A stretch of 41,192 bases of DNA from Candidatus Nomurabacteria bacterium (lineage in GTDB: Bacteria; Patescibacteriota; Minisyncoccia; Phycocordibacterales; UBA5272). Below, piece by piece: positions 16,887 to 22,228 of this stretch. The stretch's first letter is position 1; each line of letters begins with the position of its first letter. The DNA lies in NCBI GenBank assembly GCA_028286645.1, contig JAQBRF010000004.1, positions 472,942 to 514,133 of the forward strand, read 5' to 3'. Under the pieces are notes generated by a model, which searched no databases, had not been told where the DNA came from, and saw nothing but the letters and a program-made list of their open reading frames with translations. Made by a program: the position numbers and the translations under genes.

Positions 16887-18118
16887 AACAATTTTATTTT
16901 CTTTAATTCCGCATATGCATCTCCTGCGCCAATATTTACTGCTATAACCTCTCCCCTGAGATCTTGAATTATATTTACAATTTCATCTTTAGATCCGAGC
17001 AGGACTGCATTTCCTCCTTTATTATTTATTTTATCTACCAACATTTGTGAGGCTCTAGAATCATCATGTTTTTCACGTGCTGCAAAAATAGGCATTACAT
17101 ATACAAAGTCTACAATTGCAAGTGACTCTGCAAATTCATCCATAAAAATCTTTGTGCGTGAGTATAAATGCGGCTGGAAAAATACATGGAGATTATATTT
17201 TTCTTTGGGATACTTTTCATATAACCCTTGAAATGTAGCATTAAGTTCTCTAGGATGATGCCCATAGTCGTCATAAACCTCCACGCCGTTTGCCGTTCTG
17301 CCCTTATATTCCATTCTGCGCCAAGTGCCTTTAAATTCTTTTAATCCTGCACGTACTCTCATTTCATCAAATCCTAATTTTTTACAAAGTGAAATAACAA
17401 GCTCAGCGTTTGAGCGATTATGATTTCCCCACACTGAAAGATCTATTTCATCTTTTCTTATTTCAGGATCAACTCCTATTCCACTATGGCTTACCAAATA
17501 ACCTCCTGCCGGTAACTTACTCGCAAATTCCTCAAATGCATTTTGAATATCGTCAATATCTTTGTAATAATCCAAATGATCCAAATCAATATTTGTAATT
17601 ATAATATGTGAAGGGTGGAGATTTAGAAACGAACGTTTGTACTCACAGGCTTCAACGACCATATACTTGCTATCGCCTGGAATAAAATTGGTCCCCACAC
17701 CTGAAAGCAAGCTCCCCACTATAACAGTAGGGTTTATTCCACAAGCCTTCATGGCGTAATACATCATGGCTGTTGTGGTGGTTTTACCATGAGTTCCACA
17801 AATGGCTATCGTTTCTTTTTCTTTCGTCACATCGCCTAATGCTTCTGGATAGGTTTTATGATTAATGCCTAAATCCAACACTTGTGAAAACTCAGGATGG
17901 TCGATCGGGAGAGCTATTGTATATACAAATAAATCTATATTCTTGCTAATATTTTCTTTTGTTTGCCCAATAGTAATTTCTATTCCTTCTTTTTTTAACG
18001 CTTGAATCAAGTCAGAATCATGCAAATCTGACCCGGCCACATCATGTCCTTTGTATTTATAATATCGAGCCAAAGCAGACAGTCCAATTCCCCCTATTCC
18101 ACTACAAAATATCTTCAT
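16883..18118 (-). CDS. murC: UDP-N-acetylmuramate--L-alanine ligase
   Basis: The 411-residue Mur ligase opens with GIGGIGLSALARYYKYKGHDVAGSD, split across the nucleotide-binding turn. The P-loop is ICGTHGKTTTTAMM near 107-120, followed by EACEYKRSF and DDYGHHPREL near 296-305, both typical of MurC. It adds L-Ala to UDP-MurNAc. It ends with TGA, which together with the overlap to murD argues against UGA recoding. It overlaps the upstream C39-like gene by 4 bp. Confidence 0.96.
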   Translation of the reverse strand: MKIFCSGIGGIGLSALARYYKYKGHDVAGSDLHDSDLIQALKKEGIEITIGQTKENISKNIDLFVYTIALPIDHPEFSQVLDLGINHKTYPEALGDVTKEKETIAICGTHGKTTTTAMMYYAMKACGINPTVIVGSLLSGVGTNFIPGDSKYMVVEACEYKRSFLNLHPSHIIITNIDLDHLDYYKDIDDIQNAFEEFASKLPAGGYLVSHSGIGVDPEIRKDEIDLSVWGNHNRSNAELVISLCKKLGFDEMRVRAGLKEFKGTWRRMEYKGRTANGVEVYDDYGHHPRELNATFQGLYEKYPKEKYNLHVFFQPHLYSRTKIFMDEFAESLAIVDFVYVMPIFAAREKHDDSRASQMLVDKINNKGGNAVLLGSKDEIVNIIQDLRGEVIAVNIGAGDAYAELKKIKLL

Positions 18119-18627
18119 ATTATTTTAGAAATTAAAATTACCATCCCGCGCCAATAATTCATAAATTCTGCTTGTGTGCAGCTACGGTTTTGCCCTCTTT
18201 CCTTATTCGTATATTCAGGATCGTGGTAGATGATCATTCCATTTTCATACCCCGTAACCACAATCATATGGAATCTTTTTTGTTCAAGCACTCTTTTTTC
18301 AACAGAAGCAATAACCGGATTACCATTCTCTAAAGAGTTTAGTATTTCTTTTAGAGAAGTTAACCCTTCCTTTCTTTCGGCGTGCATTCCTTTTTCACAC
18401 ACATACTCGACTAATTGATCATGTATCCATCCATTTTCCATATGATACCCACCGCGATCCTTTAGTTCGTTACATAACATAACTAAGTCAGGAGTCGGTA
18501 CGCGATGAAAGTCTAATACCATTTTAAGCGAAACTGCCCCACACCCTCTAAGCATCCAAAAAGGATCAGATATATCAATATACTGAGAATAATAAGGTAC
18601 TTCTAATTTCAGATTATCTAATTTCAT
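18115..18627 (-). CDS. C39-like papain-fold peptidase, cytosolic
   Basis: The ATG at 18627 gives 170 residues beginning MKLDNLKLEVPYYSQY. This is the Peptidase_C39_2 pattern. A catalytic Cys29 (RGCGAVSLKM), His120 (RFHMIVVTGY) and Asp136 (IYHDPEY) form a plausible C-H-D triad. There is no signal peptide, ABC transporter part or leader substrate nearby, so a bacteriocin-processing role is unlikely. Its start lies inside the last codons of pheT (14-nt overlap) and its end overlaps murC. Tight coupling with a PheT that carries its own papain-fold insert makes a shared substrate worth testing. The true reaction is unknown. Confidence 0.75.
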   Translation of the reverse strand: MKLDNLKLEVPYYSQYIDISDPFWMLRGCGAVSLKMVLDFHRVPTPDLVMLCNELKDRGGYHMENGWIHDQLVEYVCEKGMHAERKEGLTSLKEILNSLENGNPVIASVEKRVLEQKRFHMIVVTGYENGMIIYHDPEYTNKERGQNRSCTQAEFMNYWRGMVILISKII

Positions 18628-21031
18628 ATCCTTTCTCTTTAAACTTCGCATAGTATTCTTCTATCATCTTGTTAACCTCTTCATCAGTAAGCGTACGCTC
18701 ATGACTTTGGAAAACTAATCTGAACGCATACGAAGTCTTTTTTACCCCTTCGATTTCTTTAGAAAAGGTATCAAAAAGGTCAATACGAGCAACAATAGGA
18801 TTCCGTATTTCGTCCAAAAGAGAGCGGACACTTTCCCATGATACGCTATCAGGTACCCACATAGCAATATCACGAGCAATAAACGGATAAGCCGAGACTG
18901 GTTTGTAACTAACCAAAGGTAAACGAGAGAATGATGGCGCTTCATAAGTTATTGGATCATTTAAGTCTACTATAAGATCATCTAAATCTATTTCAATAAT
19001 ATATGGTTTTGAAGATACAGTTTCGCAATTAATAGCTTTTATTCCCAAGGTCCTTTTTATGCCAGCCAGTATCAAATCTACCTCTTCGGAGAAATTGCTT
19101 TTCTTGGCTCCGTCATCAATGGCGATAGACAGATGCTTTCTCTCGCTTTCTTTATTAAATACTTTTCCTATTTCAAATACCTTAATTGTTTTCTGTCCTA
19201 GAAGCGGAGAATTATAAAAGTTCATATTAAAAGCATTCATTATTCCTTTCCCTAAGTCCGGCCTTATCTTTTCTTTATCTTTTGCTAAGCCCTTGACTAA
19301 TTCGACTTCCCCAACGTCACCAAATGTATAAGTAATTATTTCTGAAAATCCATGAGAAAAAAGAATCTCGCGGATTTTATTTTCGTAATGCATTTGCTTA
19401 TTTAAAAGACCGGTTCTAGAAAGAGATGGAAGAGTGGGGACTATTTTGTCATATCCTATAATGCGTCCTGCTTCTTCTGCTAAATCTTCTTTTATGCGAA
19501 TATCGAACCTTTCAGAAGGGACCTTTATTACAAATTGAGGTATTTTTAAATCATTTACAGGCCTTCCATACCAACATTCATTTTTAAAATAATTACTGCT
19601 AGAAAACTCTTCAATCACAACCTTTCCTATTATGCTTCCAGTGTGTATCACCTTACCATCTCCTATATACATCCCGACATGGTCAATGCCAGGAGGAAAC
19701 TCAGTCCCGCGTAAGAACTCTAATGTCTTTGTATATTTAGGAACATCTGGAATTTCTTTCCCTAAAACCTTAGAATATATCATGGCATTTTTAGGTTTTT
19801 CTGTAAGTGTATTTGTAAATATAAGGTCACCTAATTTTAAATCTTCTTTCTTTATCTTTTTGCTATAAACATACATATCAAGAGAAACTCGAGGGAGCGC
19901 ATAACCACATTCTACATAAAACCAATTAACTAACGATCCGCAACTAAATTTTTCGGGAGCATCATAAAGAGTACTTGCTAACCTTTCGTAGGGCTTATCT
20001 AATGCCACAGGAATAAGCTCTTTTATCTTTTCTTCCGGAACTACTTTTTCAAATGTAAATAATAACTTTTTAAAAGCATCCTCTATTAATGAACCTTCAT
20101 ACTTTGTGCCTAAGATAGAATTCAGATCTTCTTTACTTATGCCTATCTTAAAAGATTTATCCTTTTTTGGATATATATCCACCACTTCGCTCGCCTTTGC
20201 ACTTTTGCAAACTTGCTTTATAAGATTCGCTGTCATATAAAGCCCCTCTTCAACAAGAGAATTTGCAATGCCATTTTCGAAGCGTTTAGATGCATCAGTA
20301 TGGAGATTATACTTTGTGGAAGTTCTCCGAATAAGACTTGGTTCAAAGTTCGCGCTTTCTAAAATAACTACATTTGTATCTTCTTCTATACCGCTTGGCT
20401 TCCCTCCTTTAATTCCAGCAAGTCCTAAAATTATTTCACCATCAGCAATAACCAAATCTTTAGAATTTAACTTTAGATCTTTACCGTCGAGTGTCTCTAA
20501 CTTCTCTCCAGACTTCGCGAAGCGGACATTTATAACCCCGGTTATTTTCCTCGCGTCATATGCATGCATGGGTTTATTAAGCGAAAACTGCACATAATTT
20601 GTTATATCAACTATATTATTAATACTTCTTTGTCCGATGGCTTCCAATCTTTCTTTAAGCCATTTAGGAGACGGAGATACTTTCACCCCTTCTATTCTCA
20701 TACTCATAAACCTTGTACAGGCTTTTTCATCTGTGACCATTATTTCTGGGACAGGGACTTTTTTATCAACCAACTTTTCATTTAATTTTACCTTCTCATC
20801 ATCTTTGAATGTGAAACCGAAGTCAGCACATAGTTCTCGTGCCATACCTCTGTGGCCCAATGCATCGTGTGCGCGATTGGGCAATACTTTTATTTCAAAA
20901 ACCGTATCTTTTTTTAGACTAACCACTTCTTCAACTTCAAATGCTTTTTTATTTAAAATATCCCTGATTTCTTCATCAGATGGAAGCGGTTCAACTATGT
21001 AGTCTTGTAGCCAGGATTTTAGGAATTTCAT
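18614..21031 (-). CDS. pheT: Phenylalanyl-tRNA synthetase beta subunit with an inserted NlpC/P60-like domain
   Basis: The protein has 805 residues. The start MKFLKSWLQDYI and VLPNRAHDALGHRGMAREL (49-67) are PheT, but the EMAP-like tRNA-binding domain normally between them is absent. B3/B4 spans about 110-285. B5 begins near 293 and is interrupted at about 335. PheT resumes at 500 with VPSERFDIRIKEDLAEEAGRIIGY. The catalytic-like core and the FDX-ACB end (from 712, YPFIARDIAMW) follow. The insert (about 335-497) reads as NlpC/P60: Cys364 (FSCGSLVNWF), LKLGDLIF, His451 (DHVGMYIGDGK), His463. One frame runs throughout. It overlaps the C39-like gene. Confidence 0.92.
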   Translation of the reverse strand: MKFLKSWLQDYIVEPLPSDEEIRDILNKKAFEVEEVVSLKKDTVFEIKVLPNRAHDALGHRGMARELCADFGFTFKDDEKVKLNEKLVDKKVPVPEIMVTDEKACTRFMSMRIEGVKVSPSPKWLKERLEAIGQRSINNIVDITNYVQFSLNKPMHAYDARKITGVINVRFAKSGEKLETLDGKDLKLNSKDLVIADGEIILGLAGIKGGKPSGIEEDTNVVILESANFEPSLIRRTSTKYNLHTDASKRFENGIANSLVEEGLYMTANLIKQVCKSAKASEVVDIYPKKDKSFKIGISKEDLNSILGTKYEGSLIEDAFKKLLFTFEKVVPEEKIKELIPVALDKPYERLASTLYDAPEKFSCGSLVNWFYVECGYALPRVSLDMYVYSKKIKKEDLKLGDLIFTNTLTEKPKNAMIYSKVLGKEIPDVPKYTKTLEFLRGTEFPPGIDHVGMYIGDGKVIHTGSIIGKVVIEEFSSSNYFKNECWYGRPVNDLKIPQFVIKVPSERFDIRIKEDLAEEAGRIIGYDKIVPTLPSLSRTGLLNKQMHYENKIREILFSHGFSEIITYTFGDVGEVELVKGLAKDKEKIRPDLGKGIMNAFNMNFYNSPLLGQKTIKVFEIGKVFNKESERKHLSIAIDDGAKKSNFSEEVDLILAGIKRTLGIKAINCETVSSKPYIIEIDLDDLIVDLNDPITYEAPSFSRLPLVSYKPVSAYPFIARDIAMWVPDSVSWESVRSLLDEIRNPIVARIDLFDTFSKEIEGVKKTSYAFRLVFQSHERTLTDEEVNKMIEEYYAKFKEKGYEIR
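19540..20029 (-). other. Region of pheT encoding the inserted NlpC/P60-like domain
   Basis: This stretch codes for residues of about 335-497 of PheT. The order is a catalytic Cys in SCGSLV (the family usually has DCSG), a YALPR turn, GDLIF, DHVGMYIGDG, then VIHTG. That matches the order C...H...H of NlpC/P60. The boundaries are estimated from where the B5 sequence stops and resumes. Confidence 0.75.
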
Positions 21032-21070: not shown

Positions 21071-21427
21071 TTATTTATTTAGATATTTTCTGAAACCTCC
21101 CATTGAAACACCTAAACCACTAATTATCTTAATCATTTTACCATACTCGATTTCTGACATATATCCTAATCTAAATGAAACTTCTAACAAACTTTCAACT
21201 TCCTTTAATGAGCCTATAGCTATATCAATAAAACGAGAATAGTCTTTCTTCGATGGTCGTGATGACCCTTCAGCAATATTTGACGATATGGATACTACTG
21301 CTCGTCTTAACTGGGAAGTAATTCCAAATATTTCTTCTTTTGGAAATCCTTTTGTAAGTTTATATATATAAGTAGACAGATCCACTGACTCTTTCCATAT
21401 ATTTAAATTTTTATAACTTTCTGCCAT
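21071..21427 (-). CDS. Four-helix-bundle protein, 23S rRNA intervening-sequence (IVP) family
   Basis: The 118-residue protein has the family landmarks LNIWKESVDLSTYIY, QLRRAVVSISSNIAEGSSR and SLKEVESLLEVSFRLGY. It belongs to the four-helix-bundle group first found inside 23S rRNA intervening sequences and related to Avd of diversity-generating retroelements. No reverse transcriptase or variable repeat is nearby. It sits between pheS and pheT, flanked by spacers rich in short direct words (GTAGAAAGTAG), which looks like an insertion into an otherwise conserved gene pair. Possible role: RNA or protein scaffold. Function unknown. Confidence 0.85.
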   Translation of the reverse strand: MAESYKNLNIWKESVDLSTYIYKLTKGFPKEEIFGITSQLRRAVVSISSNIAEGSSRPSKKDYSRFIDIAIGSLKEVESLLEVSFRLGYMSEIEYGKMIKIISGLGVSMGGFRKYLNK

Positions 21428-21448: not shown

Positions 21449-22228
21449 CTACTTTCGACCTTCCAACATAAATTGATTTACTACGCGAAGATCGCCGTTA
21501 TATAAAAGCCTGACATCATCAATTCCATACTTAATCATAAGCATACGGTCTATTCCGCAACCAAAAGCAAATCCTTTCATATCCCGAGGATTAATCCCCC
21601 CTGCTTCTAAAACTTTCGGATGAACCATTCCCGCGCCGCCTATTTCAATCCATCCTGTTTCTTTACATATATTGCACCCCTTACCTCTGCACTTAAAACA
21701 TTGCATATCCACTTCGTTTCCTGGTTCCACGAACGGGAAATAACTGGAACGAAGACGGATATTAATATCACTTTCAAAAAATTCTGAAAAGAATTTCTTG
21801 ATAACACCGATCATCATCGAAAGACTTGCATCTCTATTTATATAAAGCATCTCGATTTGATGAAATTGCGCTTCATGCGTCGCGTCAGTGGCTTCGTTTC
21901 TAAAAACTTTTCCTGGACAGCAGATAGCAAGAGGAAACTGTCCTCCATCAGAAACAAATTTTTCCATGGTTCTAATCTGCATATTGCTTGTGTGCGTCCG
22001 GAGGACATAGCCAACTTCTTCACCAAACTTGTTTATACCTTTTTTATCTTTAATCCAAAACGTATCCTGCATATCTCGTGCCGGATGATCTTTCGGTACA
22101 TTTAGTGCGTCGAAGTTATGCCATTCATCTTCAAGTTCTGGCCCGTCTACAGTATCAAACCCAAGCTTTGAGAAGATATCTGTGATCTTAGCAATCGCTA
22201 AGGTTATCGGGTGAGCATGGCCATTCAT
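21449..22228 (-). CDS. pheS: Phenylalanyl-tRNA synthetase alpha subunit, catalytic core only
   Basis: At 259 residues it lacks the N-terminal coiled coil of about 80 residues found in typical PheS. It starts at HPITLAIAKITDIFSKLGF, the usual beginning of the class II core. Landmarks are the RTHTSNMQIRTME substrate loop, CPGKVFRNEATDATH (motif 2), a CFKC/GCNIC zinc-like knuckle and GFAFGCGIDRMLMIKYG (motif 3). The start is fixed by TGT-TAGAAT (22235-22240), 6 nt before the ATG. The preceding gene ends 27 nt upstream, so no N-terminal exon is missing by mis-call. With PheT it forms the heterotetramer that charges tRNA-Phe. Confidence 0.93.
   Translation of the reverse strand: MNGHAHPITLAIAKITDIFSKLGFDTVDGPELEDEWHNFDALNVPKDHPARDMQDTFWIKDKKGINKFGEEVGYVLRTHTSNMQIRTMEKFVSDGGQFPLAICCPGKVFRNEATDATHEAQFHQIEMLYINRDASLSMMIGVIKKFFSEFFESDINIRLRSSYFPFVEPGNEVDMQCFKCRGKGCNICKETGWIEIGGAGMVHPKVLEAGGINPRDMKGFAFGCGIDRMLMIKYGIDDVRLLYNGDLRVVNQFMLEGRK

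Follow-up and report, generated by a model that had tools for sequence, protein, structure and literature searches.

The beta subunit of phenylalanyl-tRNA synthetase (PheRS), encoded by pheT, usually but not universally carries an EMAP-like tRNA_bind domain. Among the aminoacyl-tRNA synthetases (aaRS), enzyme domains inserted into the synthetase are exemplified by editing domains such as that of LeuRS (PMC13114784). The NlpC/P60 family includes Chlamydia YkfC, a cytosolic enzyme with a Cys-His-His triad in which an SH3b domain forms the S2 site (PMC9928106). Here we describe a 41,192-nucleotide stretch of a Candidatus Nomurabacteria genome (referred to below as the window) in which an NlpC/P60 domain lies inside PheT and a C39-like gene directly follows pheT. 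Each of these component families is known, and the combination was not found described in the open literature: a text search, with most subscription papers outside its reach, returned no paper mentioning NlpC/P60 in PheRS.

An NlpC/P60 domain within the B5 domain of PheT

The minus strand of positions 18614 to 21031 is a single open frame of 805 aa, whereas the plus strand contains many stops over the same interval. Its translation scored 426 bits against the bacterial PheT model (TIGR00472, pheT_bact; cutoff, 402.65), and Pfam detected B3_4, NLPC_P60, the second half of B5, CLM, and FDX-ACB (Table 1). NLPC_P60 (PF00877) matched residues 359 to 420 with 50.5 bits (gathering score, 23), and the B5 match began only at profile position 39. 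The B5 profile is whole (positions 1 to 67) in insert-free relatives but broken at positions ~32 to 39 in insert-bearing ones. A previous sequence-only reading of this DNA had placed an in-frame NlpC/P60 domain here, interrupting B5 at residues ~335 to 497, and these results bear it out, with the domain itself spanning residues ~336 to 492. Profile searches found a single B5 match in the genome of the window, and likewise a single NlpC/P60 match; the 805-aa PheT must therefore do the charging. Because the NCBI family model names the protein plain PheT, the second enzyme is easily overlooked.

Table 1. Positions of features of the pheS-pheT region in the window, with the corresponding fusions from outside the class
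Feature	Position	Strand	Basis or genomes
pheT, phenylalanine--tRNA ligase beta subunit, 805 aa, NlpC/P60 within B5	18614..21031	-	Translation, Pfam, TIGR00472
B3/4 editing domain, residues 104-275, known editing residues kept	20207..20722	-	Pfam
B5, N-terminal half, residues ~294-330	20042..20152	-	Alignment with insert-free PheTs; relatives' B5 profile positions 1-36
NlpC/P60 domain, residues ~336-492	19556..20026	-	Pfam, alignment, model and structure comparison
Cys364 codon, putative catalytic Cys, invariant	19940..19942	-	Alignment
His451 codon, putative catalytic His, invariant	19679..19681	-	Alignment
His463 codon, putative third triad residue, invariant in 24 inserts	19643..19645	-	Alignment
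B5, C-terminal half, residues 499-527	19451..19537	-	Pfam
FDX-ACB anticodon-binding domain, residues 713-805	18617..18895	-	Pfam
C39-like papain-fold gene, partner of the insert, Cys and His conserved	18115..18627	-	Pfam, alignment
pheS (alpha subunit)	21449..22228	-	Pfam
Other-class PheT-NlpC fusions	L203-L215		Genomes G364, G464, G485, G437, G495, G524, G430, G634

Structure prediction and an overlay on NlpC/P60 structures, both suggested in the sequence-only reading, gave a papain-like fold. The AlphaFold model of the domain, built from 70 fused and free relatives, had a pLDDT of 93.8 and a pTM of 0.87 (full-length PheT modeled alone: pLDDT 88.4, pTM 0.64). Its closest match was the autolysin 7cfl (C. 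difficile Acd24020; Z 17.5, 114 aligned, rmsd 1.6; VIA list), with further matches to Trichomonas NlpC1/2 (Z 17.2) and YkfC 3h41 (Z 16.7) in the same list. Cys364, His451, and His463, correctly numbered in that reading, are invariant across 24/24 aligned inserts in the canonical Cys-His-His order, and the Cys and first His are also invariant in the wider alignment of fused and free relatives (n = 70). The motif around the Cys is altered, being SCGS in the window and DCSS elsewhere versus the usual DC[SA]G, and this departure raises the possibility of a substrate unlike that of cell-wall enzymes. In close pairs, leaving out those with exchanged inserts, dN/dS was 0.04 to 0.17 for the insert versus 0.09 to 0.17 for the PheT core, indicating purifying selection. 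Two conserved B5 halves, a profile score over the cutoff, a matching fold, and catalytic residues kept throughout the aligned inserts together argue that the insert is not a chance feature. Judged from sequence and model, this is a genuine NlpC/P60 domain with its triad intact, presumably active as a hydrolase.

The same results bear on the possibility that the insert is an inert structural element or scaffold without catalysis, one of the functions guessed at previously. Location in the B5 loop would suit such a role, and other aaRS carry noncatalytic inserts. However, we consider this explanation highly improbable given the invariant triad, selection as strong as that on the core, and persistence of the domain as a free protein (see below).

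The EMAP-like domain (PF01588) had no Pfam match in the window PheT, as the sequence-only reading had noticed. Its relevance did not survive comparison: the PheTs of insert-free relatives (~640 to 690 aa) likewise lack this domain, so its absence is unrelated to the insert, and fused PheTs from outside the class have it (Pfam-confirmed in 4/4 tested). Between pheS and pheT lies a small four-helix-bundle-like (S23-type) open reading frame (window positions 21071 to 21427, minus strand), and a similar one occupies the pheS-pheT gap in L095 and L209.

Distribution, exchange, and release of the insert

A survey of Patescibacteria PheTs, also proposed in the sequence-only reading, located the insert within PheT frames of 767 to 841 aa in 24 genomes of the set formed by the genome of the window and its nearest relatives. 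Scanning deposited genomes yielded 45 loci, comprising 38 PheT fusions (one of them cut by a contig end), 3 short relics, and 4 ordinary Paenibacillaceae proteins. The fusions were found in Nomurabacteria, Zambryskibacteria, Campbellbacteria, Lloydbacteria, Yonathbacteria, Vogelbacteria, Kaiserbacteria, and other Patescibacteria, including one on the complete chromosome CP011215.1 (L085). In the class sample, several families had fusions and others had free relatives, most of them 145 to 225 aa long. The phylum sample added eight genomes outside the class, with full-length PheTs of 929 to 970 aa in which the insert occupies the identical position in B5; in two of the eight (G524 and G430), the third triad residue is Asp. 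Two genes run together, which the earlier reading had already discounted, and misassembly are both ruled out, as dozens of independent genomes, including CP011215.1, share this architecture.

The fusions from within and outside the class joined in the tree, apart from the free proteins (support 87, not starred), and a single old insertion is therefore likely. Within the same genus, PheTs without the insert branch among those that carry it; since such insert-free sisters exist, the insert is not needed for charging.

The insert and the core of PheT have separate histories. Identity between L001 and L004 is 46.5% for the core versus 71.6% for the insert, whereas that between L011 and L018 is 79.2% for the core versus 40.5% for the insert. 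Core and insert trees conflicted accordingly: approximately unbiased (AU) tests rejected trees uniting L001 with L004 for the core (p 9e-5) and trees uniting L011 with its core sisters for the insert (p 4e-4). This conflict rules out a single clean vertical history. The exchanged stretch comprises both B5 halves together with the NlpC domain, as expected of homologous recombination between pheT genes, and this segment moves between pheT genes as a cassette. A selfish, intein-like element spreading itself into pheT would also give patchy, clean presence and absence and horizontal exchange. We regard this as almost certainly wrong, because Pfam found no HINT or endonuclease domain in PheT, exchange that takes in both B5 halves is typical of ordinary recombination, and self-spreading leaves the co-loss of the insert with the C39-like gene (see below) unexplained.

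The domain also persists where PheT itself has been lost. In L094, L102, and L162 (G189), a single-chain PheRS of ~382 aa, consisting of the synthetase core and FDX-ACB, without a beta subunit, has taken the place of pheST at this locus. The loci retain NlpC relics of 209 to 226 aa flanked on either side by remnants of B5, the relic frame in L162 overlapping that of the single-chain PheRS. A further relic (L110:3806-4558) has no PheRS gene in view. Relics fall within the fusion clade in three places, with the triad kept, implying no fewer than three releases of the domain. The insert survives as a separate protein in three lineages, two of which have a single-chain PheRS next to it.

Some further features of these loci were recorded. 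The L110 contig is labeled Alphaproteobacteria MAG01, and its relic is nested among Patescibacteria inserts, which reflects either a mislabeled bin or transfer to another bacterium. Single-chain, mitochondrial-type PheRS is common (e.g., L162:5238-6386 and L094:2675-3820), occurring in ~79/285 class genomes. L033:1186-2481 (G046) encodes a 432-aa PheT with B5, CLM, and FDX-ACB only, lacking the B3/4 editing domain.

The C39-like partner gene and the candidate functions

The best clue to function is the C39-like gene, which the sequence-only reading missed. It lies directly after pheT, its likely ATG being in the last codons of pheT, with an overlap of 14 nt. Its product matched Peptidase_C39_2 (PF13529; 50.4 bits, cutoff 24), with Cys37 and His128 invariant in 19 proteins. 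Among 59 relatives, C39 was detected in 18/23 with the insert versus 3/36 without it (p 5e-8), leaving as exceptions five insert-bearing relatives with no C39 match and three insert-free relatives with one. Across the class (n = 285 genomes), 19 had both NlpC and C39, 18 NlpC only, 15 C39 only, and 233 neither (p 6e-11); these co-occurrence counts share ancestry, being partly inherited, and are not independent events. Five independent tree pairs across strong branches had the insert and C39 gained or lost together in 4.3 and changing in opposite ways in 0.1, although restricting the tree test to strongly supported branches gave p values of 0.06 to 0.38, five pairs being too few for significance. 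Outside the class, C39 occurred in 6/8 genomes with a fused PheT, each time on a contig other than that of pheT, versus ~15 of the remaining sampled genomes (p ~1e-6, assuming 300 to 343 genomes outside the class).

Gene order and fusion link the two proteins further. The family f83 has the order NlpC, single-chain PheRS, and C39, often then gyrB; L190 holds such an NlpC-scPheRS-C39-gyrB operon, with similar loci elsewhere. In one genome (G069), NlpC and C39 are fused in one protein of 330 aa (L188:4391-5380, minus strand), divergent from valS. Inertia of the locus might account for some of the conserved linkage to PheRS. It fails to explain the link to C39, because the two co-occur unlinked and are fused to each other in G069. 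As side observations, an M24 metallopeptidase gene (L151:2866-4083) follows the C39-like gene in the f83 NlpC-PheRS-C39 locus, and the genome of the window encodes a second, distant C39-like protein (G000:C3:86928-87326).

The proofreading apparatus of PheT is unaffected by the insert. The editing residues T144, N145, H156, A205, G206, E225, and T245 are intact in the window PheT, and N145, H156, A205, G206, and T245 are kept in 24/24 insert-bearing PheTs. NlpC occurred in 10/79 genomes with a PheRS lacking the editing domain versus 27/206 others. The insert is thus no substitute for proofreading, given that these residues are all present and that genomes missing the editing domain do not have NlpC more often. 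Compensation for lost cis editing is ruled out on the same grounds, the cis site being intact and NlpC showing no enrichment with single-chain PheRS. The sequence-only reading had proposed a deacylase or trans-editing unit, in which NlpC would hydrolyze mischarged or damaged aminoacyl-tRNA (or peptidyl-tRNA) from PheRS. This would be consistent with the position of the domain in PheT and with the neighborhoods of its free relatives: by rough counts, 5/14 free lineages lie within ~5 kb of PheRS genes, versus ~2% by chance, and five more adjoin other translation genes (SerRS, ValRS, ProRS plus LeuRS, and GatA). The intact editing site, the lack of enrichment, the insert-free sisters in the same genus, and the existence of the module as a separate protein elsewhere nevertheless make trans-editing unlikely.

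The link to cell-wall precursors proposed in the same reading fared no better. There, the domain would be a cytosolic cell-wall peptide enzyme, acting in YkfC-like muropeptide recycling or precursor trimming, with PheT a mere carrier. Its close structural matches are all NlpC/P60 peptidases, mostly acting on peptidoglycan; chlamydial YkfC provides a cytosolic precedent (PMC9928106); and murC-murD follow pheT in the window. However, murC-murD adjoin pheT only in the window and near relatives, with gyrB following elsewhere, and MurC was detectable in 13/23 genomes with the insert versus 27/36 without it, ten insert-bearing genomes having no MurC-like frame at an E value of 1e-20. A link via MurC/MurD is weakened by this lack of association, which covers MurC presence. 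Pfam also found no SH3b domain in PheT, whereas SH3b builds the S2 site of YkfC. We therefore hold a cell-wall role to be rather unlikely.

A third candidate is detoxification or defense, with the NlpC-C39 pair destroying a peptide-like or amide-bearing inhibitor of PheRS. Patchy spread, repeated gain and loss, and cassette exchange resemble fluctuating selection, and PheRS is kept near. Low dN/dS and an old, stable insertion site are unlike an arms race, and we know of no inhibitor for these bacteria; such a role appears very unlikely.

A proposed hydrolase system carried by PheRS

What endures from the sequence-only reading is a conserved NlpC/P60 domain in PheT, catalytically intact as far as its residues indicate; its functional guesses do not. 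Our preferred explanation, held with moderate confidence, is an active two-protein cysteine-hydrolase system, formed by the NlpC insert and the C39-like protein and carried by PheRS, with a job other than aminoacylation or proofreading. PheT, a working synthetase subunit, would carry a second, catalytically active enzyme in its B5 loop. This passenger would attack an amide (or ester) bond via Cys364, activated by His451 and His463, and would act in the cytosol together with the C39-like protein, the two probably sharing one substrate or pathway. Being part of PheT would couple both the abundance and the location of the hydrolase to PheRS, and we infer that this proximity matters. The NlpC-C39 system might alternatively perform acyl transfer instead of hydrolysis. 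An extended form, which we judge quite unlikely, has PheRS, the NlpC insert, and the C39-like protein as one assembly, with Phe-tRNA or Phe-adenylate as the acyl donor and Phe transferred to, or released from, a cytosolic acceptor; if true, Patescibacteria would possess a novel pathway that depends on tRNA.

An essential tRNA synthetase here houses a catalytic domain from a peptidase family, one that is strongly selected in more than one Patescibacteria class and kept after PheT loss. Retention of the insert argues that these small genomes run an enzyme system, not described before, that is coupled to the charging of phenylalanine. The C39-like partner and the free relics are compact proteins suited to direct tests of function, and the locus offers a clear case of exchange, within an essential gene, of a whole enzyme cassette.

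Compared with the PheRS beta subunits of TIGR00472 (T. thermophilus 1b70 and E. coli 3pco), the window PheT has the same order of B1, B3/4, CLM, and FDX-ACB, keeps the editing residues, and has pheS just upstream, but it lacks the EMAP-like B2 domain (a lineage trait) and has an enzyme domain of 157 residues in B5. LeuRS-type inserted editing domains (PMC13114784) likewise place an enzyme domain within a synthetase; in contrast, the window PheT already has an intact editing domain, and its insert comes from a different enzyme family and also occurs free. The NlpC/P60 (MEROPS C40) enzymes 7cfl, 3h41 YkfC, and MepS 8xup have the fold and the nonpermuted Cys-His-His order in common with the insert. 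Unlike these C40 endopeptidases, the window domain sits in a cytosolic tRNA synthetase, without SH3b or an export signal, and has an extra stretch between the GD and HVG motifs, with DCSG changed to SCGS or DCSS. Chlamydial YkfC is cytosolic with a Cys-His-His triad, as proposed for the window domain, whereas its substrate site is built by SH3b and it has no described connection with PheRS or with a C39-like protein (PMC9928106). Finally, the partner protein matches the Peptidase_C39_2 profile with the Cys and His conserved and differs from other Peptidase_C39_2 proteins in being stand-alone and cytosolic, without a transporter, and paired with NlpC.
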